DNA of 36,790 nucleotides from Ectocarpus siliculosus (lineage: Eukaryota > Sar > Phaeophyceae > Ectocarpales > Ectocarpaceae). The stretch is taken from the NCBI GenBank assembly GCA_000310025.1, contig FN648619.1, forward strand, positions 500,404-537,193, read 5' to 3'. Under the pieces are notes generated by a model. It saw only the letters and a list, made by a program, of their open reading frames with translations. It was not told the origin of the DNA and did not search any database. A program made the translations under genes and the position numbers. Of this stretch, positions 2,532 through 22,800 are shown one piece after another (the stretch's first letter is position 1; every line of letters starts with the position of its first letter).

Positions 2532-3098
2532 ATGCCACCTAACCCCCCCCCCCACCCACCGCAAGACCACTTGGAGATATACGGGAAGTTGAAAGAAGGG
2601 ATAGGGATGAAGAAGTACTTGGACGGCCCCATGGACTATGCGAAAAAGCTGAAATTGCAATTTCGAGTAGGCGATCTGGACTTGCCAGAACGGAGGAAGA
2701 GGTATACCAGCCGTAGGAGAGAGGAAGAGGAGGATAGACACACATGTCCATGTGGCAAATCGGAGGAGAGTAGACCCCACATAGTTGGGGAGTGTGAGTT
2801 GTACAGGAAGGAAAGAGAGGATCTCGAGGAGGAAATGAGACAGAGAGGGTGTGACATGGACAAGTTTGGTAAGTTAGACAACAGCGAAAAAACGATCGCG
2901 ATAATTGGGGATAGATGGTGGGCACAAGAGGCCCTAGAGGACGGGGATAAGATGTGCAAGAAATTTTTATGGAGTTTGTGGCAGAAACGTAAAGAGCTCC
3001 CAAATGTTGGTGGTGTCTCTAGTAGGTGTAGGAACGGTGCTCCGTCTCGAAAGGGACGCGTGGTCAATGGTCAAATGACTACGGCAAGCAACAAATGA
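2532..3098 (+). pseudogene. 3' end of a non-LTR (LINE) reverse-transcriptase ORF, 5'-truncated
   Basis: A 188-residue open frame with no RT catalytic core but with the C-terminal module typical of LINE ORF2 proteins: a basic stretch (PERRKRYTSRRREEEED), then a zinc-finger-like CPCG - HIVGECELYRKERE motif (Cys-X-Cys-X8-10-His-X4-Cys-X2-Tyr), then an acidic/hydrophobic tail with DRWWAQEAL. This order is familiar from the region after RT/RNase H in LINEs. The frame begins just upstream of a C-rich run (2547-2556), and the body upstream is missing, as expected for a 5'-truncated insertion. A C homopolymer (3104-3119) follows directly. An unrelated host zinc-finger fragment is a less likely alternative. 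Confidence 0.7.
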
Positions 3099-3429: not shown

Positions 3430-3763
3430 GTAAAATTTCCATCAGACCGGGTGGTTTCAATATTTGGAACAAATGATGTAGCCACGAATCTCATCGAATG
3501 TATCTGGATATGTGTGCGCAAAGAGATCACTCCCTTCTTTCGCTCCGAAAACTAGTGAGCTGTCGCGTTGTTCGCTAAATTATAAATTATTGAGAGTATG
3601 CCGAACACTCGGTCGTCGAAACAACGGGACAGCTCACTAGTTTTCGGAGCGAAAGAAGGGAGTGATCTCTTTGCGCACACATATCCCGATACATTCGATG
3701 AGATCCGTGGCTACATCATTTGTTCCAAATCTTGGAACCATCCGGTCTGATCGGAAATTTTAC
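3430..3763. mobile_element. Foldback element with ~145-bp near-perfect inverted arms
   Basis: The left arm (3430-3574) starts GTAAAATTTCCATCAGACCG and ends near GAGCTGTCGCGTTGTT. The right arm (about 3619-3763) is its reverse complement and ends TCGGAAATTTTAC. Both arms contain AAAGAGATCACTCCC / GGGAGTGATCTCTTT and CGAAAACTAGTGAGC / GCTCACTAGTTTTCG. A ~45-bp AT-rich loop separates them. There is no internal ORF of note. The structure is that of a MITE or foldback transposon, or an ITR pair brought together by internal deletion. The tyrosine-recombinase remnant begins about 25 bp to the right, so the two could belong to one former element (inference). Confidence 0.85.
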
Positions 3764-3785
3764 TTCACATTTCGTGGCCTGATTT

Positions 3786-4509
3786 TCGGTTCTCAGTTTT
3801 TGGCAAGCAGCTCCGTGCGTCCAGCGAGGCAGTCGCAGTGTAGGCAGACCACGCCTGCTGTGCAGAACTTTGTGCGTTTCGCTGCGGTACGGCGTACATC
3901 TCGGCCGCTGAGCGCGTCCGTTGGGACCTGTCGAAGGGGGCACTTATTCCCGACGGTCACTGCCGAGGGTGAGAGGGGGGACCTCCCTCTTACGGCGGCC
4001 CGCATGACGGCCTCCCCGCAGAATCGTTCGTGGGTAGCTGAGCTGCCGACGCAGTTTACCATGCACTCCTTTCGTGCAGGCAATTCCCTCAGCAAGTCGG
4101 TGGCGGGGACGGCGGTAGAGTAGATGAAATCATGCAGATTGGGGGCTGGAAGACAGAGTCGGTGGCGCGGCACTACATCGGAGCCACCGCTATTATAGTG
4201 GTCGCCTGTCGGGTAGCAAGCGGGCCCGGGGGCAGAGTTACGCCGATGCGAATGATATGCCCCTGTCCCCGGAGTGCAGTAGGTACCGGTGCAGGTGAAG
4301 CAAGTCTGGGTGAGTCCCCTTCTCGCCGGGGTGGAGAGAGAAATCAATGGAGGTACACGAAGGATGGGCGGGACCACGGCCCGGCGCAGGAGGCCTCAGC
4401 AGGCAATCCAATGATACATCAAATGATCCTCGGTTTGAGTCAAAATACTGGAACAGGAAATACTGCTGTAGGTAGATTGTGCGGTGGCTCAAGAAATGAG
4501 AGCGCTTAG
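3786..4509 (+). pseudogene. Tyrosine recombinase C-terminal fragment (DIRS/Crypton-type), frameshifted
   Basis: The plus frame ending at 4123 holds the recombinase box II: FTMHSFRAGNSLSKSVAGTA, with the His-X2-Arg pair. It then hits a stop. Continuing in another frame from about 4114 gives VDEIMQIGGWKTESV and ARHYIGATA, containing the GGW position and the nucleophilic Tyr (HYIG). The break coincides with a GTAGA GTAGA direct duplication near 4112-4121, so a 5-bp insertion explains the frameshift. The N-terminal half of the recombinase, including the first catalytic Arg, is not visible. This recombinase differs clearly from the one in the intact-looking element at 11.4-12.8 kb (HSFRSGGAVSSSLAG, WRYMRLM), so it derives from another lineage. 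Confidence 0.8.
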
Positions 4510-5403: not shown

Positions 5404-6785
5404 ATGGCGAGTAGAGAGGTGCACATACCCACTGTCAATATCGCGTCACTGCTGACCACCAGTGATGAATCGTTCAGGTGATGAAATGGCAGTAGTACAC
5501 GTTAGATTCAGCTAAGCAGTGCATGCAGCCTGGTCGACATCATGCCGCCACAGCAGCAGGGTAAACCGAGACTTCACACCGCGTACTGGCATGGCAACAC
5601 GTGAAGGGACCCGGCCCAGATTCAAAGGTTTATGTTGTGCCATGGGTCAAGCCATGACGTGGAGAGGGGCGATGTGCATCTTGATCAAGACCATCATGCC
5701 TCTCCGGCCTGGCTGAACACTGCTCTGCGTAACTGTCGCATCTCCGCAGCGAGGATGATCGAGCGACCACCGCGAACGCCTTGCTGCGAGCTTGTGAGAC
5801 CCACGGGCTGTTCTTTGTCGTAGGTCATGGGATCACGACGTCTCAGAGGCGCCTGGCCTTCGACAACGCCAGGTGAATTTGAGTTTGTGACCGGGACTTC
5901 AACTGCAACTTTGTCCGAGGGAGGGGTTGCGGCCCAATCTCCCCGCAGTCCGTGAGTCCGCTCCCAGTTCCCCGTTCCCAGAGTCCCGAATTTGTGTTGC
6001 CTCGGTGCAAAGAATTATTCGAGAAGACCCGAGAAAAATTCAGCTTGCATGTACCTGGTTCATAGTGCACATACCGGGAATAGCAGTGTGGACCAGACCC
6101 CCACCACCGGTGATTGAAACCTACACGGCTGACAGCTGAGATGTCAACTATACTCGAAGTTGGAGGACTACAAAGCAGACTGTGTCACATTCTTGTTGTA
6201 CCGCGCTGTTGATGAAAATCGCCACCATGTTATTCTTCGTTATACAAAAGTCCGCTATAGACGGCAATCGCCATCATGCCACGCTATGGGGACACTCTGA
6301 TGAGTTGTGTTCGTGCGACACTCTTGCATACCCGTCGGCGACACGAAATGGCGGACCAACCACAAATGCTGGGTTTTTCTTTTCTTTTCTACGCACGACC
6401 GAGGGATCTACTATTGTAATAATAGTCTAGAAGTTCAAACATACTTTGCTGTGTCAAAATAGAGGATCCCATTTACGCATCATCAACGGCATTTGCGCGA
6501 TTTTGTTCGCGCCCTCGATTTTTCGCGTCGCCCACTCGTTTTCGGGTGTGTGACGCGCGCTTGCGGGCCCCGCGACTTTCTCCGACCAACATGAGGCGAT
6601 TTTTTACCGACGAACCACTGCTGTAAATCAGGCGATTTTTTTCCCTTCCGGAAGCGGAGAAAAGGAAAATCCCCGCAAAGAAGGGCGGCTTCACGCGAGG
6701 CTACATCGGATTCGGCGGGGAGAGTGGTTCGCACCTTCGAGAATGCAAGGAGGCTTTCAGCTACGGGTGAGGCAACGAGCTTGAC

Positions 6786-6824
<39 letters not shown>

Positions 6825-9800
6825 TGGATTCTCAAAACCAGAAATGAAGAAAGAGGTACGATTTCAAAATTCTCCAGACACAAAGAACCAGAACACAGGA
6901 GGAGGAAGAACACCCTCTCACTTCCTGTTATCAAACCTGTGCAAGACAGGAAAACAGAGGAAAAGAGAGCCTTCTTTTGAGACGCTCCACCATCCGCTCG
7001 CGCCCCCCGCTCTGCTCGAGCGGCGCCCGCGACCGTCCGTCCCGCTGGGATTAGTTCTTTCCCCCTGTTTGTGTCTCTCCTCGTGCGCTTCTTTCTCCTC
7101 ATCATGGCAGCGGCGGTACCGCACTTCCGGCTGGAGGACCTTCGCGAGCCCGGGCCCGAGACGGTCATAGAGCACCTCCATGACCTCTGCGCACCAGAGA
7201 GCGGCGGCGAGGGCAGCGGGCGGGTGATGGACTTGACCCTCCTGGGTGTGCTGCCGCACTGGCGGCAGCTGGAAGCCGCTTCCCTTGACGACGTGTGCAG
7301 GTTGTTTGGCGCGTTGATCGACGCAGGCTCCGCCAGCGACAAGCCCAGCATAACGCCGGCTCCGCGGCCGTCGGCGACGCACGTACGAAGGCGGCCCTAG
7401 CCCAAGCGCTGACTGGTCGGTATTCTGCCCAACGACGAAAGGAAACAACGAGAGGAAGCCGACCGAGCAGAAAAACCTTACAGAAACGAGAGAAAAACGC
7501 GTCCCGCGACGCTAATAGACAACAGGGAGCCCTTCGAATGGGGAAACAACGGAAACAACCGGAAACTAGCAAAAGAGAAAAACGCGCACCGCGTCACTAA
7601 AGTCGCGAATCTATCTAGTTGGGGCAGTTCTGACTGACATGCCCGAAACCGTGGCACTTGTGCAGCTCATACAGTGTGGCCTCCCGGACGCGGCCGCCGT
7701 CTGGGTACACGACAAGCTCATGTCGCAGACAGAAGAGGGTAGGCAGACCGACAGGGGCAAGGTCGTGAAGGAATTGTCGGCTGTCACAAAGTTCTTTGGG
7801 GGGCCCAAGCATGCCCCGGCTCCGGCCGGGGCTTGGGGCCCGCCTCCTATGCAACCCATGGCCCTCGCCCCGCATTCTGGGGGGTACAGCCCTTACGGTA
7901 TGCAGCCGCAAGGGGGGCAACCCGGCCACCACACCCCCGGGCGCGGATCCGGGGGGAGGCACCGGGCCTATTGGGGCCGCGGCGGCCGCGGCGGTGGCCG
8001 AAAGACCGCCTTGTGCAACACTTGCCGCCGAGCCGGCAAGACCGGGGCCGACATAAGAGCATTCGTACCGCGTCTGCCCCATGGTGCAGTGCCACAAGTG
8101 CCACGGTTTCGGGCATGTTGGTCAGAACTGCCCCAACTAGATAGTTTCGCGACTTTAGTGACGCGGTGCGCGTTTTTCTCTTTTGCTAGTTTCCGGTTGT
8201 TTCCTTTGTTTCCCCTTTCGAAGGGCTCCCTGTTGTCTAGCGTTGCGGGACGCGTTTTTCTCTCGTTTCTGTAAGGTTTTTCTGTTCGGTCGGCTTCCTC
8301 TCGTTGTTTCCTTTCGTCGTTGGGCAGAATATCGACCAGTGTCCTAGCCAGGCGGTCCTTCCCCACGGATTTCGTAGACGCTCTCCATGTTCTTTAATCC
8401 ATTGGTTCAACCCACATGTTTCTTTCTTTCGACTCGAGGTTCACGGCGGCATTCTCGGCCCTGTCTGACCGCCTTCGTTTTCCAAATACTCGCCCCCACC
8501 CATGCCTCATGCGTGTCAGGGAAGGCGAGGCTCGACCATGTGTTTTTCAGGTCTGATGGGCGAAATATAATGCTACAAATTCCACAGTGCCAACAGGTAT
8601 CCTCTGTAGTGGTTATCCTACTTCTTCGATACATTACTCGCATGATCACCAAAACACCTCCCCCGAAATTCCTGGTAGCCTCACCCGAAAGTACTGGTCG
8701 TATATACCTTTCTCGAGCAGTCTCCACCGCCTCTGCACCATTTCCTTTCTTGGTTTGGACTTTGGTCGACGGTTGAACGAGCGGATCGATTCATGTAGGT
8801 TAGGGTTAAGGTGGGCGGAGAAACTTGCCCAATTTGTTTGCTACTATCCCTAACCATGTGCAGCCTAGGTTACACGTGCGGCCGAAACACAACGTTAGTC
8901 ATGGCAACAAGCTCGGTCCCCGACACCAGAGATTTTCCTCCGCGCACTTCATGCGTGTCACAGGTCGGACCGGGAGCAAACTTATTCTTTGCCGAGAGAG
9001 CCGCACGTACCGCGCACATTCGCACACAGTCAGTGCGTGGGGACCTGCTCAGCGCATCAGCGCAACAGTCAACCGTCGACCTCTCTGACATCGGACAACT
9101 TCAACAATTTCACTACCTACCCGACCAAGCTCGGATGTGGGTGACGGACGATTTCGTTCCAGCTCACCTGCAGACCTCGGTCGAGTTCTGGCGGAACGAA
9201 ATTTTGCAAGATACCCCTGTTGGGGATCGGGTGGGTGGAAGGAGTCAACGTTCACGTCTTCGTAGAAAACAAGGCGACAGGCATTTTTCAAGGTCGATCG
9301 TACAACGGCGCTGACCTTACCTCGGTACATCTGCCGAACCACGTTCCCGACGAAGATGTACCATGGGTCACGAGTGAAATTGCCAAGCTCGCGGCGACTG
9401 GCTGCGTTGCAAAGTGGAAAGATGTCGCCGACGTTAGCGTGCACACCAAACCGCAGATGGTGCTTCCGTTGGGTGTGCAACCCAAGAAGCCCCGGTTGAT
9501 ATGGGACACGAGATGGTTAAATCTAATGTGCCATCATCGCACTTTCAGCATGGATGGCGTAGGCAAAGTGGCTCAGTGCGCTTGGGCAGGAGCTCATCAA
9601 GTCACTATTGATCATAAGGCTGGATACCACCACGTTGCCCTGGGGTTCCTGGCAATATTTTGGTTTCGAGTGGGAAGGCGAGGTATACGTGTTTACAGTG
9701 CTAGCGTTCGGGTGGTGTTCAGCCCCGTTCATATACGCTTCCCTTTCCGAAGCAATAGCTCGGTAACTGAGAGCACGAGACATCCCCGTGCTTACATGAA

Positions 9801-12800
9801 TCGACGATTTCTACCTGACAAATTTTCGGTCGACTCGCAGACTTAGCTATGACGAGCAGCGGAAAGCGGCTCAGACGACCGCGTATTTCGCTTTCGAAGT
9901 TTTCTACAGAGCGGGGTACTTCATTTCGCTCAAGAAGTGTGAGATCATCCCTACGACGCGCCTCGTTTTCCTTGGGATTATCTGTGATTCCGATCAGCAG
10001 CGTTTCGAGGTCCCAGAGGACAAACTCTCCAAGCTCGAGACGATTCTCGTCGACGCTATTACGTCTGAGTCCATCTCCTTTCAGATGTCAGAGAAGCTCG
10101 CAGGCAAATGCACTAGTCTCTCGGTGGCGGTTCCGGTGGCGGCTCTTCACACTCACCATATGTATAACAGCATAGTAGCTTTTCAGAGACGCGGAGGTCG
10201 CAAGCCCAGCATGGAGATAGAGATCCCGGCGAACAGCGGTCTTATGTTCGAGCTGACACGCTGGCGAGAGGTTCGTAACCGCTTTAACGGGGCGTAGTGG
10301 TGTCGTGCTGAACATAAACAATTAGCTCTTACCGGAGCATCTGATGCTTCCTCCGGCGGGTGGGGGGGGACTCAATAGGAGTCCAGGCCAACCCATTTTC
10401 AAAGCTGGCGGAGATTTCCCGCCACAGGTCGCGCAGCAGCATATCAATGTGCAGGAAGGGTATGCTCTTCAGCAGACTCTGCACCTGTTTTCAGATAGCC
10501 AGCCTTCTCAGCTGGCTGGGTCCACGCTCGTTTCCAACGTAGACAGCAAGGTCTTACACGACGCCTTTATGAGGGGGCGAGCCTCCAACACTTTCATGCA
10601 TGAGATTATTACAGATCTGTTCTGGTTGCAAGTGCGACGCGATTTCACGCTATAGTTGAAGTGGGTGAGCTCCGAGGCTAACGCTGAGGCCGACGGCATT
10701 TCTTGACCAGGGTCGGACGATTTTGTGAGATTAGCCGAACAGATGTTCGGCGAACTGAGCGCGTGGGCCGGAGAGCGTGTCACCATGGATTTAATGGCCA
10801 CACCTTCCTCGGTTCACAAGAGATGGGTGGCTCGGTGCTGCACTAGCGAGGACTTGCCATTTTACTCTAGATATCATACGCAGGGATGTGCCGGGGTTGA
10901 CGTGCTCACGCACAATGTTCGGTTCATGCCTGGTTCAAAGGCCGAGGATTGTTTCGGCTTCTGTTTTCCCCCAACCAGTATGGTCGGCGTGTTTCTTCAA
11001 CACTTGGAGGAGTGTCAAGCAAGGGCGCTTGTGATCGTCCCGGATCAGAAACAGTGCTGGTTTCCGAGGATAGCAAACGCGACTGCGCGGTCGCGAACGT
11101 TGTCAACTAGCAGCGGGGGTGAGTCACCCTTTTTCCGGGTACACCACCAGAAAGGGTGCGAGCGTTTTCATTTCAAACGGTCGGGAATGCTAGCAGTAGT
11201 AGTGGATTTCACCCGACATTTAAAGTAATACTTATTCGGCTTCCCTTCCCAACATGTCTTGTTCATGTTCGGTGGTTGTGGGACAACGCATTTTGCCAGG
11301 CTCTCCAGACTATGTTCACAGCTCTTGGCCTCGTCGTGAGCGTCTTAGGGGCGATAATTCGCAAGCGAGGTTATGTCGACGAGGCGAAGCTTTCTCCTCC
11401 CCCGCTCGTAAAAGTGTCGGCGTCAAGGGCACGGGTTTTATGCCCGAAGTGCTACTGTGAGAACGATGATTGGTTTCGGTTCTGTCAATGGTGCGGATAC
11501 TCGGTGGCTCAGCTCCAAGCTCAGACGACACCTCTTCTTCAAGAGGACGAAGAGGCTATTTCGAAGCGATACCAACAATGTCAAACGGCATGATCGGAAA
11601 AGGCCTCTGCGCGCAGCCGGTCGGCCACATGGGCTTTGTTCAGCAATTTCCTGGCGTCTCGAAGGAACGGGTCTGTTTGTATTGAAAATGCACAACCGAA
11701 AGATGTGGTAGAGTTTCTATGCTGGTTAGACTCGTGCGGTACTAGAAGGCGTACGTTGTGCATGCTCGACACTGCGAAGCAGTGGGCACAAAACACCTCA
11801 CGGCCTGTTCAACGGACAAAGGAGACTGTGAACCTTAGATATGCCTGTGACTCACCCCGAACAAATCATGTCTCCAAGTTATCCATGGTGTTCGAGAAGG
11901 AAATGAGGTTGATGACGCCGTGGGTAAGACCATGCGGGTCGGTAACCCGGTGAAGAGCAAACTAGTTGCGCAATATATGGAGTTCACCACGAGTGAGCAA
12001 CAGCAGGCGGGAGTATTGGTGCAGCAAGCACCGGTGATTCTTCGAAGCCATCTAGAGAAGATCATTCTTCCAATGCAGATCAGGCTTCAGTACGCCTCGT
12101 CTGACGTCGAACGGGTCACGTTAGCTGGGGACATTGCGTTATTTTTGTTAGCTTTTAGCACGGCCAAGCGAGGGGTGGAGCTTACAAATATCCTCATCCA
12201 GCGCATTTTGCGGCTCCCAAATCGGAGCGGTCTCATGTGCAACTTTCAATGGGGGAAAACCCAGCGAGATGGAGCAGATCATATCATAGCCGTATCGTAT
12301 GACGAGGAATACGTGGCAATCTGCCCAGTTCGAGCGGTAGAGCGGTTGGTCGCAGTGGGAAAACAGGTCGGATGGGACTCAACATCAGGGTACCTTTTCC
12401 CGGACATTTCGGAGTCTCGGCAAGGTCGAGCGCAGAGAGGCAGTTTGCCGGTGACTACTAGCAAGATGTCTGAAGCGCTGAGACGATACGATACACTACG
12501 GAGGTAGGGGAGACCCAACGGTTCTCTTTACACTCCTTTAGGTCGGGAGGGGCGGTTTCCAGCTCCCTCGCGGGGGACTCTCTGTCGACTATCATGCAGA
12601 AGGCGTATTGGAAAGACCCGAAGACGGCTTGGCGATACATGAGGCTCATGGAAGTGGTAGCTCCAGGATCGGAGGGTACCGCTATGGTCGAAGGAGTTTC
12701 AGAGGACCAATACAGGCAGCTGAATGAGTTCGGTTTGAGTGAGCAGAGCCGGTCGTTTGCAGCGTTTAGCAATAAGCCTCTGCTATAGATGGTCTCATTT

Positions 12801-15800
12801 GTTAATTTAAATTACCTTTTTTCAGCCATCATCTCAATACGCATTCATCTGTTAGTTAGTGAAGTATGGGATGACAAAACTCATCTCGATCGAGTGCGTT
12901 TCCTAAGTGAGGGAGAAATGGACACACCGTCCGTGGGAGGTGATGCCACTGTTCGCATCCCATACTACCTGAGGAGAAGAACTTACTCGAAAATACTGAT
13001 GGATTCTCAAAACCAGAAATGAAGAAAGAGGCACGATTTCAAATTTTTCCAGACATCAAGAACCAGAACACAGGAGGAGGAAGAACACCCTCTCACTTCC
13101 TTTTATCAAACATACCTGTGCAAGACAGGTAAACAGAGGAAAAGAGATTCCCCTTTGAGACACCACCCACCCGCCCAACGATGATTGAATCTTTCTCCAA
13201 TTTCTTTTCGATTCTATTTTCGGTCAATTCTTCTCCGAAAAATACAATCGTCGCGGATGGAAATAAATAAATACGATGTTTGTTCCAGAAAACATTTCTC
13301 CTCGCCATATTTATTTATTTCCTTTCGCAACGAGGTGGCAACACCAACCTCTCTCTGCGGGAGGTGATGCCACTGTTCGCATCCCATACTATCTGAGGAG
13401 AAGAATTGGCTCGAAAATACTGATGAATATATGTTGCGATAGGTTCTGTTGGTACCAACAGCGGGGCTACAATCTCCGCCCGTTAATAATGTTTTACTTG
13501 CTTCATGCTTCCTGCTCTTCGTTGCTGCTGTCCTCCAGCAACCGATCGCGTTTCTGAAACTTTTTTTTTTCGCGCGTGCCGGCGTCCCGCGGCGACGGTG
13601 CGCCCTGTCACAAATTGTCCATGGGCCCGACGATGGACTCGTCAGGGTCCAAAGAGGGGCACACGCATGCACGAATGCTGCACTTGTGTCGAAGCACGGC
13701 GTTCCGAGAATGTTTTTCGACGCCTACGTTGGGGCCGGTGCTACAGCCCTACCACCCTCCTCTTGGAAGGCCGGCCTTCTAAATAGCGCGATTGCTCGCA
13801 GACGTTCCCCTGTCTGCTTCACTGTTTCGCCATAGCCCATGGTCAGGTCAGGATGGCAAGATACATTTCCGCAAGGAGGCGCCCGCGTCAGTTGGACCGG
13901 TACGGATACTGCAGTAGAAGGTGCTGAGCGGAGATTAGAACGGTATTTACTGCGAAGACAACAACACCACCACCAACAATAACAACAATAACAACCGACA
14001 GTGGTGTTTCTTCTTTTTCCCCCCCCTTTAAGATCTGATATGTTCTCCGTTTTCCCCCGCAGGTATCCTTGGCCCAAAGACCAGCCCCCAAACAACGCGC
14101 TCCAGGGTCCAAACATATGGCCCGACAGTGACTCCCTGGGGGAAGACTGGCGAGATAGCATGTCGGCGCTGTTCAGGTGTGAGTTAAGGACATGAAAACA
14201 GCTCGACACTGAAATTCAGCAAGTACTTGAGCTACCGCAATGCTCGTTTTTTCTTTTTGCCATGTCTTGAACAGCACACAGCAGTCAGTCGCTCACGGAA
14301 AAGTGTTTTTTGGAACAAACGCAGTGGGTACCCCACCACGGAGATTGAAGATGTCCAAAATATGTCGTTTTCAACGGTTAATGCTCCCTCCCTTTCAACG
14401 TTCGCAGTGCGTGTCAACGGCCCTCCATGCTATTCGAAAACCGTCTGTACCGATTTTCAACGGTCACATTTGCTTGTGAACGGCCCTATAGGTTGATGGT
14501 GTCGGTGAACGAGGCCGTTGCGCGGGGTCTCTCGCTCTCCCTAGACCTCGGCCTGCAGGACCTCCCGGCCCTTTGCCAGGGGGGGGACACGATCAGCCTC
14601 TTGAGGCTCTTCCACTACTTTCCCTACAGCAACGACGCTGCCAGCAACAGCAACAGCAGCGGCGGCGGCAGCGGCGGCGGCAGCGGTACCGGAAGTGGCA
14701 ATCGCAAGGACGATGACGACGGCAGCGCCAAGGCCGTCGCCAGCACGGGCTCCGGCACCGGCGAAGAAAACTGTGGCAACGACGACACTGGCAACAGCGG
14801 CGGCAGCAGCGGCAGCCAAGAAGGAAGTGGTGCGGGAAACATTGGGTCCAGCCCGCACACCGACTGGTATGGCATGTCAAACGCTTTTGCACTGGCGTTT
14901 CTTTTTCTTTCTTTTTTGCACCCCGCGTTTGTTATGTTACACCTGCGATGTTCGCCCGTAGTACTTCTTTAGGTGCTTGGGGTCATGGGATGGCTTTGGG
15001 TCGCAGACTATAGCCCCGCTGATTTCGGTGCCAATCTCATAGTGAATCTTCTTACCATGCAGTGCTGCAAAAGGGTGCTGGGAAACAGGCAATGGCTTAA
15101 TTGTTGTCTTGCGCCTTGCCGCCGTACTGACCTTCTGGGCGCCGGGCTAGCCCTTGCAGCTGTCATTAAAGAAACCACACGGCTACGATATATCTCACTT
15201 CACAAAAGAGCGTGTCTCGTCCCCCCCGCAGAATCATCATTTCGGTCTACGTGTTGCTGGCACTCCATTCGATTTCGCGTCCCCCCCCCCCATGTTTTTC
15301 GATGGCTACGGCATGAAAAACATGCCCCGGTTGTTCTCACGTGTTTCCCATTCAGTCGTGGTCCCGGCTCAGCGGTCCATAGTGTTAAAAAAAAAATTAT
15401 AACCGCTACTGAGGACATCTCCGCTAAACCGGATTGGCAGTATTATAGCAGCTAGACTGCCGAGGTGCTTCCGTGCCACGAGATATTGGAATCCCTATTG
15501 AGGGCATCCCGCTAAACAAGGAACCGCTATACCGGGACCACGACTGTATGCGCTCGCAGGGGTCTGTCGACAAGCATTCTCCAAGACGGGGCTGGAGGCC
15601 TTCAGTTCCTGGAGCAAGCGACTCAAAGGTGGGGATAATTTGTTGGCTAAGGAGGCAGTCCGCAAGTTCCAACGCGAAGGCTTTCTCCGCGTTTGCTTAC
15701 CCGAAGAGATGGCACCCCCCCCCACCGCTAGACCGACTTTCAAAGCTCGCTTCCTAGACATGCAAGTGGGTGCGGATTGAGCCAGACACCAAAAGCCTTT

Positions 15801-17401
15801 TATGTACGAGATTTTACGAAATCCGCCCTCCTTTATCCGTTGTTGGCCTTGAAAAATCGGTCCGGAGGGGGTGCCATCTCTGCGCCTCTTCCCGTACTTT
15901 CTTCCGGCGGAACCTCGCACCCCGTGTTGCGACTGGCGCGGAGGTCGACGTATTTCTCCTCGGACTGGGCTTGTGGCACAACCAGGGAACATTATCGACA
16001 GCACCCAAGTGGGCTGTAGCACACCAAGGACCTATTCCTGTAGTGTTATTATTGCTATCATACCGTTGTAGTTGTACGACCGCGCGGGAGCGGAGTGACG
16101 GGCAGTTTTTGTGATGGGCAGAACCACTTTGACGCACAGCACAGCAGTGTCGCTTCTATTTGTCGTTACCACTGTTGGGCTCGATCCATGATTTTTGTCC
16201 AACACGTTGGGTCTCTGCGGGGCCGCCTTCTTGACGACTGGCCGTTGTTCGAAGCATTCGTGACACCGAGCTCTATCAAAATACCCTGTGAACCGCCGGG
16301 GTGAAAGACCTTCCCCAAGCCTATCGGCACTAGCCGGGCGTTGGTTTTGTCAAATGACAACGGAGCGGTATGCTTGCGATTTTCGACTGCTTTGTCTGAT
16401 GAATGCACTGCCAAAGGCGACGAATGCAAGCGGATACTAATAGCTTAGAAAACAAGTGGTGCCCCCGACCTACCCATAGGGGTGCCTTTCTTTTTGACGC
16501 CTCGTATGCCGCTGTTTTTGTTTTGTTACAGGTGGGTGGACGTCCCTTGCGCCCAGGAAGACGCGCTGGTGTTCAACTGTGGCGACTACCTTTCGCTTCT
16601 GAGCAACGGCCGCTTGAAGTGAGTCTGGTGATTTTAGGTGGTACATTAGCTTTTTGCCGGCAAAAAAATTCGATCCACCTGTAGTTTTTTTCAGAATAGT
16701 CCCTGTGCCAGAGAGCTTATCCTGAAACTGGAACCGGAACCAGCACCCAGGGCGTCGGAGCCGTTTTAACAAAGCCGCGCCGGTCTGTTGGTTATTGGTA
16801 CGCTCGCTTTTTCCACCACACCGATGTCAATACATTTGTGCGCGAAGTCAAACATGTACTATTTAGTGTTTTTTTGCTGTGCTGTGCCGGTATCATGAGG
16901 AGCACCACCGTGGTTCATTCGTTTGGGTTCGGTGCCGGTGGAACTTGTGCGGCCTCTCGCTCTAATAAGCTCGAAATGACACATCACTGCACGCGTTTCC
17001 CCCTCTTTATATCGACACCGGGGGCGCGTGCGAGCCAGGTCTCCGGTGCACCAGGTGGTGACGACCGGCGTCGAGCGGACATCGGTCGTGTTTTTCTACT
17101 ACAGTATCCCAGCTTCGACGCCAAGCTACCCGTCACCGCTCCGCGCGACGACGCGAGTTCCAGCGCAGGAGCAACCTCAACAAACCCGGCAGCGACGGCG
17201 GTTACAGCGACAACGGCAGCCACGGAGGAGCCAGTCACGCGCGAGCCGCGGGAGACGATCGGGTCGTACAACACCTTGCTGGACCTCCGCAATAAGCAGC
17301 GGGGTGGCGACGCTGCAGCGGCAACAGCCGTAGATGAGGACGATGCATCCTTCGGGCAGTACCTCGCCAGAAAGTGGGGAGCTGTATTCAGAGAAAAATA
17401 G
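5404..17401 (+). CDS. 2-oxoglutarate/Fe(II)-dependent oxygenase (isopenicillin N synthase-like), 8 exons
   Basis: Non-heme iron oxygenase; substrate unknown. Exons: 5404-5477, 5750-5872, 6632-6766, 14063-14176, 14492-14866, 15560-15628, 16532-16618, 17039-17401. All seven introns are phase 2 and every junction keeps frame. The N-terminal DIOX_N region reads MASREVHIPTVNIASLL, then ACETHGLFFVVGHGI, then FSLPEAEKRKIPAKKGGF and TRGYIGFGG. Next come NALQGPNIWPD and ISLLRLFHYFPY. A ~74-residue Ser/Gly/Asn/Asp-rich insert precedes the iron motif HTD (H271, D273). Then come WGLSTSILQDGAGGLQF and LVFNCGDYLSLLSNG, the distal iron His in KSPVHQVV (H330) and the 2OG-binding R-x-S (R339, S341, in ERTSVVFFYY). 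Right after that the frame breaks: removing 5 bp near 17102-17106 restores YPSFDAKLPV and gives 444 residues to the stop at 17401. Unrepaired, translation ends at 17333. This may be a pseudogene, an allele or a sequence error. Confidence 0.88.
6787..6823. repeat. (CTG)n microsatellite between oxygenase exon 3 and the retroelement
   Basis: About 12 perfect CTG units, 20 bp downstream of the exon 3 donor (6767) and directly abutting the left end of the DIRS element at 6826. It is not part of the element's repeats, since the copy at 13001 lacks it. Confidence 0.9.
6826..6994 (+). repeat. Split direct repeat A1 of the DIRS element
   Basis: Starts GGATTCTCAAAACCAGAAAT and matches 13001-13172 with scattered differences, including the shared internal stretch CAGGAGGAGGAAGAACACCC. 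Similarity fades after the GAGGAAAAGAGA segment. Confidence 0.9.
7104..8143 (+). pseudogene. Gag-like ORF of the DIRS element, rearranged
   Basis: The 5' part begins at the ATG at 7104 (MAAAVPHFRLEDLREPGPE) and stays open to 7400, with DLTLLGVLPHWRQLEA and LDDVCRLFGALIDAG. A 250-bp inverted segment (7412-7662) then interrupts it. Gag-like sequence resumes with DAAAVWVHDKLMSQTEEG and VVKELSAVTKFFGGPK, followed by a Pro/Gly-rich tail and a Gly/Arg stretch (YWGRGGRGGGRKT). After another frame change comes a CCHC zinc knuckle, CHKCHGFGHVGQNCPN, then a stop at 8143. The knuckle (Cys-X2-Cys-X4-His-X4-Cys) supports nucleic-acid binding. I could not align the N-terminal part to a named gag family; its place in the element is the main argument. 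Confidence 0.65.
7412..7662 (-). repeat. Inverted duplicate of the gag 3' end (left arm)
   Basis: The reverse complement of 8093-8340 at very high identity. On the minus strand it encodes LHKCHGFGHVSQNCPN and a stop, the same zinc knuckle as the plus-strand copy apart from G to S, followed by the same downstream non-coding DNA. It lies between the gag 5' and middle parts, so it looks like an inverted duplication within the element, not a terminal repeat. Confidence 0.85.
8093..8340 (+). repeat. Gag 3' end and downstream spacer (right arm of the inverted pair)
   Basis: Carries the gag zinc knuckle and stop (8143), then about 200 bp of non-coding DNA ending TGGGCAGAATATCGACCAGT. It pairs with 7412-7662 across a ~430-bp interval, so the transcript could form a long hairpin. 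The next stretch, 8341-8890, holds no convincing ORF. Confidence 0.85.
8892..11226 (+). pseudogene. Reverse transcriptase-RNase H polyprotein of the DIRS element, multiply broken
   Basis: The N-terminal part runs through FHYLPDQARMWVTDDF and VEFWRNEILQDTPVGD, then shifts frame near 9230. The RT core follows: TGCVAKWKDVADVSVHTKPQ, LGVQPKKPRLIWDTRWLN, VTIDHKAGYHHV. After a second shift near 9640 come FGWCSAPFIYASLSEA and the catalytic IDDF box (Asp-Asp), with in-frame stops at CGG-TAA and ACA-TGA just before it, then LKKCEIIPTTRLVFLG. The RNase H domain begins GASDASSGGWGG near 10337, then HINVQEGYALQQ, VSNVDSKVLHDAF and SSEANAEADG, supplying the D-E-D-D acidic set. The C-terminal extension has LPFYSRYHTQGCAGVDVL and CFPPTSMVGVFLQHLEE, a region commonly seen after RNase H in DIRS/Ngaro proteins. 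It is non-functional as read. Confidence 0.88.
11393..12788 (+). pseudogene. Tyrosine recombinase of the DIRS element, frameshifted
   Basis: Starts with a zinc-ribbon-like segment, VLCPKCYCENDDWFRFCQWC, carrying two Cys-X2-Cys pairs. A helical SAM-like region follows (FVQQFLASRRNGSVCIENAQ, then DVVEFLCWLDSCG), in a different frame. The catalytic domain (11920-12507) has box I Arg in LLAFSTAKRGVELTNIL and a PVRAVERLV segment. It hits a stop near 12505. Another frame continues with box II, QRFSLHSFRSGGAVSSSLAG (His-X2-Arg), then STIMQKAYWKDPKTAWRYMR, giving the Trp and the nucleophilic Tyr, and ends at 12788. At least two frameshifts inactivate it. In DIRS elements this enzyme replaces the DDE integrase. 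Confidence 0.88.
12934..13000 (+). repeat. Split direct repeat B1
   Basis: 67 bp starting GGGAGGTGATGCCACTGTTC and ending AAATACTGATG. It matches 13359-13425 with a few substitutions (ACTTAC versus ATTGGC). It directly abuts A2. Confidence 0.9.
13001..13172 (+). repeat. Split direct repeat A2
   Basis: The second copy of A1 (6826-6994), joined directly to B1 on its left, as expected for the circular-intermediate junction copy in split-direct-repeat elements. Confidence 0.9.
13359..13425 (+). repeat. Split direct repeat B2, right end of element
   Basis: 67 bp repeating B1. Host intron sequence (AATATATGTTGC) follows directly. The remaining intron to 14062 has no recognised gene or element, only a perfect palindrome CTGTTGGTACCAACAG near 13445-13460. 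Confidence 0.88.
14632..14850 (+). repeat. Low-complexity Ser/Gly/Asn/Asp coding insert in the oxygenase
   Basis: Within exon 5, between FHYFPYSN and the GSSPHTD iron motif, about 74 codons encode mostly Ser, Gly, Asn, Asp, Thr and Ala (for example SSGGGSGGGSGTGSG). The DNA is built of GGC/AGC/AAC-type triplets with no frame break, which suggests in-frame triplet expansion. Relatives normally have a short loop here. Confidence 0.85.
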
Positions 17402-17737
17402 CCTCTACAGAAGAAAAATATAATCTCCAACTTGTCGTCAACGGGTGTCTCAGCCTTGGAGTATTCCGAGAGACGAGCGTCAGTAGATCGCCGTGGGCCA
17501 CGGCCGTTTCCCCAGTTGAATCTATTCTTCTCGACGAGAGGGGAGCAGAAACTCCAACAGCATGTTTCGCGTAGTTGCCTAGTTCGAGGTAGCGCTCCTC
17601 TATGTGCGTGGCCTTTTCAGAGCTTGCGTGTGCCGCCGGAAGAAAAAGGCCACTCTGCTGATTAGGAGATGGGTTGGTTCGACGTTGTCCAGAGCAAGGA
17701 AATAATCTCGGTGACATGGGCGCCTGCCTCAGCTTAA

Positions 17738-17993
17738 CTAAGTTGTGGGCCCGATCTCGCGGCGGCGGGTCCAGTAGGTGCCACACACGATGCTCCTTTC
17801 GCTAAGCCTACACGTGCCCTATTAGAGGGATTGTACAGGTCCACACCGACAAGGTATTTCGACATGTTATCCATCGCCCAAGCTGTAGCTTTCTGCGCGC
17901 AGCCTAGGTTAGATCGATGGACACTCCACGCAAAACTCACGACGGCCTTTAATTTCCCGCACGAACCAGCGTGCGTCGCGTGGCTTAAATATT
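17738..17993 (+). other. Unassigned open frame, possible exon or element fragment
   Basis: An 84-codon stop-bounded frame lacking a clear start, with protein-like composition (LLEGLYRSTPTRYFDMLSIA; RLDRWTLHAKLTTAFNFPHE). I do not recognise a family. It ends with CVAWLKY and TAA. It could be a fragment of a transposon ORF or an unrecognised exon, or it could be chance. Confidence 0.25.
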
Positions 17994-18164
17994 AAAGGCG
18001 TCGACCATATATCGGGGAATGAACAGTAAACAACAAATTCAACAAGGAACTTGCCATCTAGTCTATAACAACACACAGGGATCCTTCTCAGCATGCCCAC
18101 AACCTTAACCTCGGCAGCTTAGTGTCCTCGTCTTCCCGTGGGACCGGGTGCGTGGCAGACGACC

Positions 18165-18380
18165 GTAGGTTGCAGAAGATATCACACCCCCTGGACCAAT
18201 TTTCGAAGCTCGATATCTCGGCAGGAAAAGCAGTGACGGTGCCGAAAATGGCGGAGGCGTTGGGACCGTCTGGTCGAGAGTTTTCCAAAACCGTATACTT
18301 CCGTTTCGGCATCCTCTTCGTCGTGGAGTAATCGAGCTTTGAAAATCGGTCCATGGGGTGTGATATCTTATGCAACATAC
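18165..18380. mobile_element. Palindromic MITE copy 2 (intergenic)
   Basis: 216 bp. The left end reads GTAGGTTGCAGAAGATATCA then CACCCCCTGGACCAATTTTC. The right end is the reverse complement, GAAAATCGGTCCATGGGGTG then TGATATCTTATGCAACATAC. Arms are about 60 bp. The interior contains GCCGAAAATGGCGGAGGC and GTCGTGGAGTAATCGAGC, shared with other copies. Confidence 0.85.
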
Positions 18381-19121
18381 TCCTGTAATAACTTTCGCCA
18401 CGTGCGGAGACCACGCGCGCAGAAACAACCAACAAGGCGTTCTCGGCGGGAGGAGAATCGCTGAACTTGAGCGCTGCGGCATGGGTCGCAGGGTCACTAA
18501 GATGTACCAACGTCTTGCTCCCGCCGTATGTATGGCAGCTTGTCACGAACCTAGACCGCGACTGGCCACCAAGAGCGCCTCCCACATAAAACGCAACCAA
18601 GGAAAGAGGGAACGGGCCACTGCAGGGGCGACCCCACCAACTTCGTGAGCCCAAAATTGCCGACTCCTCACGCAAGCCTGCTTTCGGTTTCTTAGCCCCT
18701 ACGCGGAAGCGCCATCAACGTGAACTATTTTCTCTTCAACACCAACCAATCGACTCAGAAACAGTGTTGGACCTATTTGCGCCGCCTGCCATAGCGTGCG
18801 GGGGGGGGCTCTAGGGTCTACGGTGCACGAACAAGGTCGGATCTAGCCCTGAACCGCAACGAAGAGCGCTTACAGCAACCTCGTGGCAATCGACTGCACC
18901 ATGATCGTGGTCCGGCCTAGAGCCAGCTGCACTGCCGTCGACCACTGGTTTCTCGGGGTCTCACCGAGTCGCCTGTAATTACAACTGCACGGCAGAATTA
19001 TTCAGCACCCATGGCTAGCGACCAGCACCTGCAGCAGCAATGCCGGAATCCTCTGTACAAACACTGCCCGATACGAACCTCGAAGTTCGTCTCAGAACAA
19101 CCTACTTATTCGTACAGCCTT

Positions 19122-19822
19122 CTAAAGCATACCGCACTTTTCTATTACCACCGGCTTCTTGGGCTTGTTTGTGCCCCCTTCCACCTTGACGCGCTCTATC
19201 AGGTGCACCACGTCCATCCCCTCGGCAATTCGCCCGAAAGCCACGTAGCGGTCATCCGCCCACCCCGCGTCATCCTTGATGGAGATGAAGAATCTGGTGG
19301 GGTGCGGGGAAAGACACACACGCGCGCAAGCGTTCGCAAGCAGTTGGAAGTCGAGCAAAAAACGACACGACTTGCGTGCGAGAGCTAACGTCAGCACTCT
19401 TTATCCGCAATATCTCTCTCCCCGCCTTGTACTTTTTCCCCCTGATTCTGCCACTTCCCGATGCTGGTCCAAGAGGTCAGAAGGAGCCTGATGCCGGTGG
19501 TACGTGAAACCGAGCCATGTTGGCAGAAGAATACATGGGTTGAGAATGACCTTGCAACTCAGTCAGCTGCAGTTGAGCGAGCGAGACCCTCAGGGCAGTG
19601 ACTGCCTTTACGGGGAAGCAATGAATGTCCTAGACTGTCTGTCGTTGATTTCTATTGACTTGCGGAACCCTTCGGGTCCACTTTATTTTCGTATACCTTT
19701 TTTTGGGTAAGTTAGCCTGTGACCACGGGAATCGACCGCGTCAAGTGTTGGACTAGTACGGACAGAAGAAGGTTCTGGGTAGAGAGAATGGAACGGTTTT
19801 CAATGTGAAGACAACAACAACG

Positions 19823-19853
<31 letters not shown>

Positions 19854-22800
19854 AGCTAAAGGACCCGTGTTTGGCAACGCAGGGTTCAAAAGGGTCGTTT
19901 GCTCACCGGCTGTCCCCCTGCGCGTCCGCGTTCCTGACCATGCTCAGCAGCCCTTCCTTCATGTGCTGCTCAAGGCCGCCACGGCGCAAGGGAGAACGCG
20001 CACACAGGGAGCAGATGGCGTCGAAACGCGAGACATTAGTAGGCAGAGGGGAAAAAAACACGAGAGCATACCAACTGCTGTCACCATTGGCTCTGTATTG
20101 GGACAAGGCGGAACGGGATCTTCGCCTGAGTAACACCAACGCTGGGGGCACGGCGGGTGCCAAGCTGGAACCACACAACTCGTGTGCAAGACCAGGGGCA
20201 GGTCATTCTTGAGGCACACCAAAGCTCACGCCGCAGGGAAAGTCAAGCAGCGTTCCGCCGTTGTTCACGCACGAAAAGCCACGGGTAATTCGGCCCCGCC
20301 GACTTTGTGCAATCGCCGACTTAAGGGTGAGCGTTCTTCTTACCTTGATGTCGAAGTTTTCCTGCGGGATGTTTTCTCCCGTCGACGACACGCCGGACTT
20401 GCCGCTTCTGCTGCCGATCGCCCCCATCTGAGCACAATCGGCGGGCAGAGAAGTTGGCACAAAAAGCGTAAATTCCGACGGTCGGCGAGATGTGTATCAG
20501 ATCGGTCGTCGACTCGTGGATTGACCGGAGTGCCGGCACTACACGCTGCCTGTAGCAGCTCCTACGACCTGCAGCAGCTCCTACACTACGACGGCTGTGT
20601 GGATGTTTGTGTAACTTCGTCCCACCCTTGCACAACATCACATACTGCCGTGTCGTCACTAAATACCTTTATATGAACCTCTAACTTCCTCCTTTCAAGC
20701 CTGCAGCGACTGCACGCAGCATGGACCAGAGTGGACAAGGAAGTACCAAAGGTTGCATAAGATATCACACCCCCTGGACCGATGTTCAAAGCTCGAATAC
20801 TCCACGATCAATAGGATGCCGAAGTTGAAGTATACGTTGTCGGAAAGATGTCGTCGAGACGGTTCCAACGCCGCCATTGTCGGTTCCGCCACTGCTCTTC
20901 CTGCCGAGAGATCGAGCTTCGAAAATTGGCCCAAGGGATGTGATATCTTATGCAACCTGCGGTACGTGACACCCTACATCGCCCCCTAGAGTCGGCACAA
21001 CTCTAATTGGTTCGGGCCTTTCGCGTCGTCACTACACCGTAACAACACACACACCCTCGGTCCTCATGTCCTCTTTCAGGCGGGCGGTCCTTCGTTGACG
21101 ATGATTGGTACCATTTACTTGTAGAAATGCCAAAGCAATGCCAAGTGGATGGAAACGAATTTTCCCACCATGCGATGAGGTAGAGCGGAACACCGGGTAA
21201 TTTGTGTGGTACGTGGAATGGATATCCAGGGTGTGCTAGGTACCCCTGTTGTATTTGGCGTCGCCCCCTCATTGGGTCATGTGTGTGAGAGTTGAGACGA
21301 GAATAATCACAACAAAGTTTTTTTTCACAGCGCGAGTCCGCCGAGTTGCCCGCACCTTATTCAACACACGCTTTATGTGACAGTGAAAAGCTACCCCCAG
21401 TTCGGATCACATCCAAACGCGCTAAATAGCGTGATATCATTCGGGATCCCGAGGTTAGGCTAGCAATGAACGGGTTTGGCCAAGAGGCTCGGCGATGGAG
21501 CAGCTGGATGCGCTCTCAGAAGAGCAGCGTCAGGCAGTCGATGCGCATATCAAAGCAGAGGTGGAAAAGTGAGGGGGAAGGAATAAACAGCTATGACGAA
21601 GAAGCAGCAGGGTGTCCCGCGTCACTCGAAGCTGTGACGCGGGGCGCTTTGCTGCTTCTTCGTCATATCCTTTTTATTCCTTTCCCTATCTGCTTTTCCA
21701 CCTCTGCTTTGATATGCGCATCGACTGCCTGACGCTGCTCTTCTGAGAGCGCATCCAGCTGCTCCATCGCCGAGCCTCTTGGCCGAACCCGTTCATTGCT
21801 AGCCTAACCTCGGGGTCCTGTATGATATTACGCTATTTAGCGCGATAGGATGACCCGAACTGGGGGTAGCTTGTCACATAGACGTGTGTTGAATAGGGTG
21901 CCCGAAACTGGGCGGGCTCGCGCCGAGAAAAAAACATGCTGTGATTAATCTCGTCTCATCTCTCACACACATTACCCAATGAGGAGGCGACGCCAAGCAC
22001 AACAGGGTACCCAGCACACTCTGGAATTCCATTTCACGTACCACACAATCACCCGGTGTTCCGCTCTACCTCGTTCCACGGGAACGTTCCGTACCATCCA
22101 CTTGGCATTGCTACAAGTATTTCAATCAACCCCGCTGCTTGTGCCCTGCCATATCATCATGACCTCTCACGAACTCGAAAACACAAGAAAATGAACTCAG
22201 AAACTCAACTTTCAAAACTGCCAAAATAGCCTCTGTGGCTAGAAATCAATTCCCACCCCCCCAGTTGTTCGAAACCTTAGCGATGTAACTGCTCCCCAGC
22301 CTAGCACACCTTCATCGAAAAACCCATGGGCGAATATGTAACATTCCTCGCCAGTTGTTTGATCACACATAAATAAACCATTATCTAAGAGTCCTCCCTA
22401 CAAAGTTAAGATGAAACTCAAAACCTCCCACGAAGTGCCTTGGTGAGGTCCGCTTGTTGGTTTGCCGACGACGATATCTCCTTTGCCCCCTCTCGAACTT
22501 GAGTAGTGCTGACTTAAAGGTTAATGTAAAAAGACAATTCCCACAAGCTCCATTCACTGCAATGGTATTGTCTCGAACGGTTAGTCTATTGACTCCAGCG
22601 CATCCGTGGTGCCTAGGGAAACTGGGGCACCTCCAACTGCCCTCAGAGTCACAAAAAACGTCGAGCCAAACCACTGCAACAGATTGTTAGTCAGCGCCCC
22701 ATCTTATCAGCACCGAGGGCTAGAGCCACACGCAAACAAAACCCCCACACGTCAAGCCAAGTACGTTCTGCGTGGTCCCCTAGACCCCCCCCCCCCCCCT

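Follow-up and report, generated by a model that had tools for sequence, protein, structure and literature searches.

A 6.6-kb segment of the Ectocarpus siliculosus genome, lying in an intron of a gene for a 2-oxoglutarate/Fe(II) oxygenase-like protein, is very probably a dead retrotransposon of the DIRS order with an ALOG-type tyrosine recombinase and the layout of the PAT group. It lies in a stretch of 36,790 nucleotides from the forward strand of contig FN648619.1 (positions 500,404 to 537,193, assembly GCA_000310025.1), here called the window, and all coordinates below are window positions (Table 1). The identification draws on the split direct repeats that bound the element, on the homology of its coding region to related contigs and on a match of one domain to Dam methylases. 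An earlier note on this DNA had placed a full-length DIRS element in sense orientation in the oxygenase intron. Membership in the order is upheld by these three lines of evidence and could be refined to an ALOG-type element of PAT layout, which suits the data better than an Ngaro element, and the sense orientation follows from the repeats, the relatives and the oxygenase domain that spans the flanking exons.

The repeats run along the element in the order A1, open reading frames (ORFs), B1, A2, B2, as split direct repeats, so that the layout read off in the earlier note is confirmed by alignment. In the A1/A2 alignment, A1 is 173 nt long, with its cleanest stretch, of 159 nt, at 6825-6983. The A match begins at T13000 and the unbroken B match stops at G13001, followed by one mismatch and two matching bases, and the two inner repeats therefore overlap on TG. 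The same dinucleotide stands at the start of the element (6825-6826), in the overlap (13000-13001) and at the end (13424-13425), as integration of a circle without target-site duplication would predict. In DIRS1-like elements the overlap is described as the circular junction, 3 bp long, and recombination with an identical short genomic sequence, without target duplication, has been modeled (PMC3266345). The termini here are direct repeats, not the inverted ones with internal complementary regions of DIRS1-like elements. Of the ends proposed earlier, 13425 stands and 6826 was one base off (6825). "Full-length" is likewise apt for the ends, while the interior may be incomplete, the published Ectocarpus relative being described as a little over 9 kb (PMC3537659). 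A perfect (CTG)12 array at 6787-6822 stops 2 nt short of the element. Between A2 and B2 lies a 26-nt inverted repeat (88%; 13248-13333) that contains an AATAAA at 13262, the only exact one on the plus strand of the intron and a possible transcript end signal of the element.

No piece of the window passed the Pfam cut-off for a retroelement domain, and the domains were therefore identified through two relatives, L002 and L006. Homology to these gives the order gag with a zinc knuckle, reverse transcriptase (RT) and RNase H, a degenerate Dam-like domain, a zinc ribbon, an ALOG-type domain and the tyrosine recombinase (YR), with the inner repeats B1-A2 downstream of the YR. The gag-RT/RNase H-YR order given earlier was correct as far as it went, omitting the methylase-like domain, the zinc ribbon and the ALOG-type domain. 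The window and L006 are collinear, with 66.0% identity over 241 amino acids (aa) in the RT, 54.5% over 288 columns in the RNase H and methylase-like regions, 43.8% over 249 columns in the zinc ribbon and ALOG-type domain, and 53.6% over 248 and 62.6% over 131 columns in the YR; the YR C terminus is 71.6% identical to that of L002 over 88 aa. The gag zinc knuckle, CX2CX4HX4C, was read by eye at 8081-8136. The zinc ribbon (CPKC...CQWC, within 11123-11590) lies N-terminal to the ALOG-type domain, as it does in L002 and L006; the zinc-ribbon profile matches in the window are weak and all below cut-off. The ALOG profile exceeds its Pfam cut-off of 26.6 bits in pieces of L006 (30.6), a third relative, L007 (28.0), and the N-terminal part of L002 (27.1).

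This set of parts places the element by several marks. RT and RNase H (through the pol region of L006), with a tyrosine recombinase in place of an integrase, are the marks of the DIRS order; a gag zinc finger and inner repeats 3' of the YR are those of the echinoderm form of Pat1-like elements; and a zinc ribbon followed by an ALOG domain, the latter seen through the relatives, ahead of the recombinase domain marks the ALOG type. When the pieces were searched by sequence in PHROGs, NCBIfam and PDB, the matches were all weak, the best relevant ones being phrog_1 integrase (0.24, YR C terminus) and a retroviral RT (1.5, RT palm). Single-sequence structure models were poor (mean predicted local distance difference test scores of 36.1 and 55.0), and fold searches returned nothing with an E value of 0.001 or lower. 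A tblastn search of the methylase-like piece against phages gave no match, and scans of the window with Rfam (gathering threshold) and for tRNAs were empty.

The relatives come from an unexpected label. L002 was found by a scan of genome contigs with the RT palm piece (55% over 165 aa, 3e-57) and is a 6,136-bp contig of a metagenome-assembled genome (MAG), G002, labeled "Rickettsiales"; L006 and L007 are two further contigs of G002 with related recombinases, so that one MAG holds three different contigs with ALOG-type recombinases. When the L002 YR was compared with the genomes of its order, 2 of 343 matched, G002 strongly and G498 at 7.2e-4. Because one genome matches strongly and one weakly, and the elements are eukaryotic in kind, we take the three contigs to be probably eukaryotic contamination of the MAG. 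L006 carries overlapping pol and YR frames that are open and run off both contig ends. In L002 the YR ORF is complete, and a single stop divides the pol frame into two open stretches. L007 carries a YR fragment, and none of these contigs extends as far as gag. The L002 YR also matches 167 plasmid records, with E values down to 7e-9 among the matches listed, which are annotated as integrases or recombinases. Viral-contig scans with RT, YR, methylase, A-repeat and L002 YR queries found no other locus, and a genome-contig scan with the A-repeat pattern found none. A phage contig, L001, was dropped as an RT relative, its NHVPDED match being a chance one. Upstream of the host gene, at 3784-4191, lies the remnant of a second tyrosine recombinase, L007-like (42.6% over 136 columns, 6.6e-18) and also broken between frames.

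Between the RNase H and the recombinase lies a domain of about 170 aa that we compared with Dam proteins by hhalign. The query was built by aligning the window piece with those of L002 and L006, and the target comprised eight Dam proteins (T1, two from bacterial genomes and five from phages). The match scored 28.34 (E value of 7.4e-4, probability of 25.6%, 97 columns), with FPP paired with NPPY, and none of 60 column shuffles reached that score, the best two standing at 26.62 and 17.34. NPPY occurs in none of the three element sequences (window, L002 and L006), and its absence, judged from sequence, agrees with the report of an inactive methylase in ALOG-DIRS elements (PMC3537659). The Dam-like match speaks for PAT over Ngaro, favorably but with modest strength and not conclusively.

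The alternative is an Ngaro element, which would have the A1-ORFs-B1-A2-B2 layout with gag, RT/RNase H and YR and neither a methylase nor an ALOG-type domain. No other DIRS-order group is as common in Ectocarpus as Ngaro, the layout taken alone fits it equally well in the published accounts (PMC8547959, PMC4157794), and, besides the weakness of the Dam-like match, Pfam Dam was found in none of the window, L002 and L006 pieces scanned. Against this stand the zinc ribbon and ALOG-type N terminus common to the element, L002 and L006, and the in-register match of the intervening domain to Dam above every shuffle; we consider an Ngaro identity very improbable. The assignment to an ALOG-type element of PAT layout has its own difficulties, and the following observations weigh against it. 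The ALOG match in the window piece reaches 19.7 bits against the cut-off of 26.6, and that in the whole L002 protein reaches 25.3. RVT_1 in L002 (19.4 bits, 9.5e-4) and Phage_integrase in L002, L006 and L007 (21.5, 17.1 and 16.7 bits) are likewise below cut-off. The contigs that bear the relatives are labeled bacterial, and neither a second copy of B nor a counterpart of A is seen in L002. The match to Dam is weak: in register with three Dam sequences at an E value of 0.011 and a probability of 3.9%, it reached the 25.6% given above with eight. Finally, the junction here is 2 nt (TG) rather than the 3 nt of DIRS1, and ATG would be obtained only if the left end were changed by one base. RVT_3, for RNase H, is also below cut-off in L002 (12.9 bits, E value of 0.1).

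The nearest known system is the ALOG-containing DIRS1-class retroposon of E. siliculosus described by Iyer and Aravind in 2012 (PMC3537659), a little over 9 kb long with 159-bp direct terminal repeats. As described, it has a gag that includes a zinc knuckle, then RT and RNase H, an adenine methylase that is inactive, and a recombinase preceded by a zinc ribbon and an ALOG domain, apparently the same parts in the same order as here. According to the same description, it differs in having extra fast-diverging 5' ORFs, including a predicted seven-transmembrane protein, none of which was seen here; the present copy is 6.6 kb, dead and carries an inverted duplication in gag. Echinoderm-form Pat1-like elements, in the account of PMC4157794, share the split direct repeats with the inner pair past the YR, the gag zinc finger and, perhaps, the methylase domain; that account of them mentions no ALOG-type recombinase domain, which the present element has. 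The PAT-like DIRS families of Ectocarpus, reported as 5 families with 842 copies beside 15 Ngaro families (PMC12477816), carry the same superfamily label, and by label only are they compared here. Ngaro elements such as those of Cafeteria (PMC8547959) are similar in the A1-ORFs-B1A2B2 layout, the size of about 6 kb and the gag, RT/RNase H and YR, but are described as lacking a methylase domain (PMC4157794), unlike the present element with its Dam-like domain and ALOG-type recombinase. The element thus looks like a further copy of an already published class and, apart from a large gag hairpin, ordinary.

Table 1. Features of the retrotransposon copy and of the host gene around it, in window coordinates
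Feature	Position	Strand	Remarks
Host exon 3, 2-oxoglutarate/Fe(II) oxygenase-like, DIOX_N part	6630-6766	+	DIOX_N 1.5e-7 for 6627-6764 alone
Host intron with element	6767-14062	+	7,296 nt; 696 nt without element; GT and AG borders, phase
Whole retrotransposon copy	6825-13425	+	TG to TG, about 6.6 kb; bounds are limits of A1 and B2 matches
Repeat A1	6825-6997	+	Against A2: 158 identical, 11 mismatched, 10 gap columns
Putative gag N-terminal part	7104-7400	+	98-aa open stretch in the expected place; no Pfam match; assigned by position only
Left arm of inverted duplication	7412-7662	-	251 nt; 240/248 identical to reverse complement of 8093-8340, one 3-nt gap
Loop, with gag part rich in glycine and proline and beginning of zinc knuckle	7663-8092	+	430 nt; six-frame reading
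Right arm of inverted duplication	8093-8340	+	248 nt; first 47 nt complete CX2CX4HX4C knuckle and stop
Reverse transcriptase	9150-10294	+	Frames 3, 1, 2; stop before IDD motif; tblastn with L002 and L006
RNase H region, broken	10298-10704	+	tblastn with L006 and L002 pol
Dam-like methylase domain, FPP replacing NPPY	10707-11225	+	hhalign match, 8 Dam proteins as target
Zinc ribbon and ALOG-type N-terminal domain of recombinase	11312-11940	+	40% to L002, 208 columns, 5e-37
Tyrosine recombinase catalytic domain, KRG, HSFR, W..Y motifs	11935-12785	+	Two frames; aligned to L002 and L006 by tblastn
Terminal block conserved in L002, holds most of B1	12905-12983	+	Score 53 to L002 4726-4804; maximum of 200 shuffles 28
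Repeat B1	12935-13004	+	65/70 identical to B2; as element part, end is TG 13000-13001
Repeat A2	13000-13174	+	Overlaps B1 on TG 13000-13001
Repeat B2	13359-13428	+	Element end is 13425
Host exon 4	14063-14176	+	Joins exons 3 and 5 in frame

Conservation between the window and L002 extends past the coding region into a terminal block around B1, well above 200 base-composition shuffles. The block begins 117 positions past the last base of the YR stop in the window and 116 past the YR stop in L002, and B2 also matches it (44, against 24 for shuffles); A1/A2 have no counterpart in the head or tail of L002. Because the block appears constrained outside genes, between elements whose proteins are 40 to 72% identical in aligned stretches, it is a candidate replication or recombination site.

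The genes of the copy are decayed, which the earlier note had not remarked. The pol match (9150-11219) passes through frames 3, 1, 2 and 3 with 5 stops within the stretches aligned to L006, and the YR match through frames 2, 1, 2 (from overlapping matches), 1 and 3, where one or more stops occur. The catalytic motifs of the YR (R, HxxR, W and Y; KRG, HSFR and W..Y) are still readable, in separate frames. Because of these stops and frame changes the copy is called dead; it could hardly produce its own proteins. Alignment of the repeats, which the earlier note had proposed, gave mismatches of 6.5% for A1/A2 and 7.1% for B1/B2, and the similarity of the two values agrees with a single insertion date.

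The flanking gene retains a recognizable reading frame. Exons 3 to 6 (6630-6766, 14063-14176, 14492-14866 and 15560-15627) form one open frame with GT-AG borders and keep the HTDW motif, and the protein joined from them matches DIOX_N at 6.8e-14 over profile positions 51 to 116, continuously across the join of exons 3 and 4. The splice phase noted earlier, with the donor after 6766 and exon 4 from 14063, is borne out, and the intron of about 695 bp foreseen on removal of the element measures 696 nt. The alternative is that the gene is a pseudogene, or ends within the element, and that the intron is not truly spliced. The last host exons gave no single-frame join with guessed splice sites, a scan of 16601-19500 for HR[VIL] returned two matches only (18962 and 19149), neither near the last recognized exons, the C-terminal oxygenase domain 2OG-FeII_Oxy is weak in the joined protein (12.2 bits, E value of 0.24), and the exact AATAAA at 13262 lies inside the element. 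The open, in-phase exons with their GT-AG borders and retained HTDW, and the unbroken DIOX_N match over the join, argue against such decay, as does the report that intronic transposable elements (TEs) seldom disturb expression in Ectocarpus (PMC12477816), and we regard a pseudogene or a transcript ending in the element as improbable.

The insertion in the intron is of modest significance, as one case of a gene from an old enzyme family that tolerates a long element. The earlier note had seen in it a special question of splicing, which is not shown to arise: 81% of Ectocarpus genes are reported to harbor one or more genic TE insertions, and transcript abundance shows no major effect (PMC12477816). 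The same source gives a median Ectocarpus intron of 524 bp on autosomes and proposes that longer TEs are tolerated in young genes only; the present element, 6.6 kb long and in a gene of old descent, goes against that trend, which is somewhat unusual but a single case.

The one distinctive feature of the copy, absent from the feature list of the earlier note, is an inverted duplication in gag at 7412-8340. The gag zinc knuckle spans the loop into the right arm, and on that account the right arm is probably the original and the left arm an inverted copy of it, as a snap-back template switch would give. An open stretch in the left arm (LVGILPNDERK...) was rejected as a gene because the 8 differences between the arms are spread over every codon position and two stops separate it from gag. 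The duplication is not demonstrably younger than the insertion (8/248 differences between the arms and 16/239 between the A and B repeats; Fisher P = 0.094). Whether the segment is instead a foldback transposon in its own right, inserted into gag, is a question on which we lean toward no, such an origin being unlikely though worth weighing. The long inverted arms at its termini, the direct repeat of the 7-nt sequence CCTAGCC close to either end (7 nt or more in 5/500 random pairs) and further hairpin segments in the window, at 3432-3760 and 21244-22007, would suit a foldback element; yet the CCTAGCC copies do not abut the arms (9 nt off the left, 2 off the right), the knuckle is continuous from loop into right arm, and the window holds no other copy of the arm. 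An inverted duplication of gag itself remains the preferred reading. Folded as RNA, the segment of 929 nt has an energy of -706 kcal/mol, whereas 20 shuffles average -364 (standard deviation of 9.5).

By analogy, the copy might serve as a trans-silencing locus, in which the host promoter, given the sense orientation of the copy in the intron, would transcribe the gag hairpin of about 250 bp as part of the pre-mRNA and double-stranded RNA or small RNAs from the intron would match the gag of live relatives, an idea to which we give scarcely any credence. Mu killer in maize is reportedly a precedent for hairpin-type trans-silencing. The strong fold is what any long inverted repeat would be expected to give and does not speak for a use in silencing. 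Small RNA in Ectocarpus is reported at 6.38 log2 counts per million for PAT-like elements versus 1.81 for Ngaro (PMC12477816).

A course of events can be proposed from the published DIRS model. The element RNA would be reverse transcribed with gag, and, with the internal B1-A2 block as template, its ends would be joined to form a circle that bears a B-A junction. The recombinase would then exchange strands between this junction and a matching TG in the intron, with its zinc ribbon and ALOG-type domain as guides, and leave no target duplication. Since then the repeats have drifted and the genes have acquired stops and frame changes; gag also gained an inverted copy of its end, probably through a snap-back template switch that may have come before or after insertion, and the host presumably splices out the whole 7.3-kb intron. 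The ALOG transcription factors of land plants are proposed to derive from retroelements with an ALOG-type recombinase (PMC3537659), and a further copy with readable ends therefore helps to define the recombinase's substrate.

Elsewhere in the window, the hairpin at 3432-3760 has two 141-nt arms, 94% complementary and 47 nt apart, and adjoins the second recombinase remnant. A 188-aa ORF at 2532-3098 with a CPC...H...C motif has no Pfam match and looks like the C terminus of a long interspersed nuclear element RT protein. Nested inverted repeats at 21244-22007, with arms of 83, 52, 160 and 54 nt that are 76 to 96% complementary, make up a hairpin of about 760 nt that is foldback-like or resembles a miniature inverted-repeat transposable element (MITE). 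A MITE-like dispersed family with GATATCACACCCCCTGGACC-like ends, several of its members being short palindromes, occurs at 240-474, 18162-18380, 20743-20965, 33507-33558 and 34055-34114.

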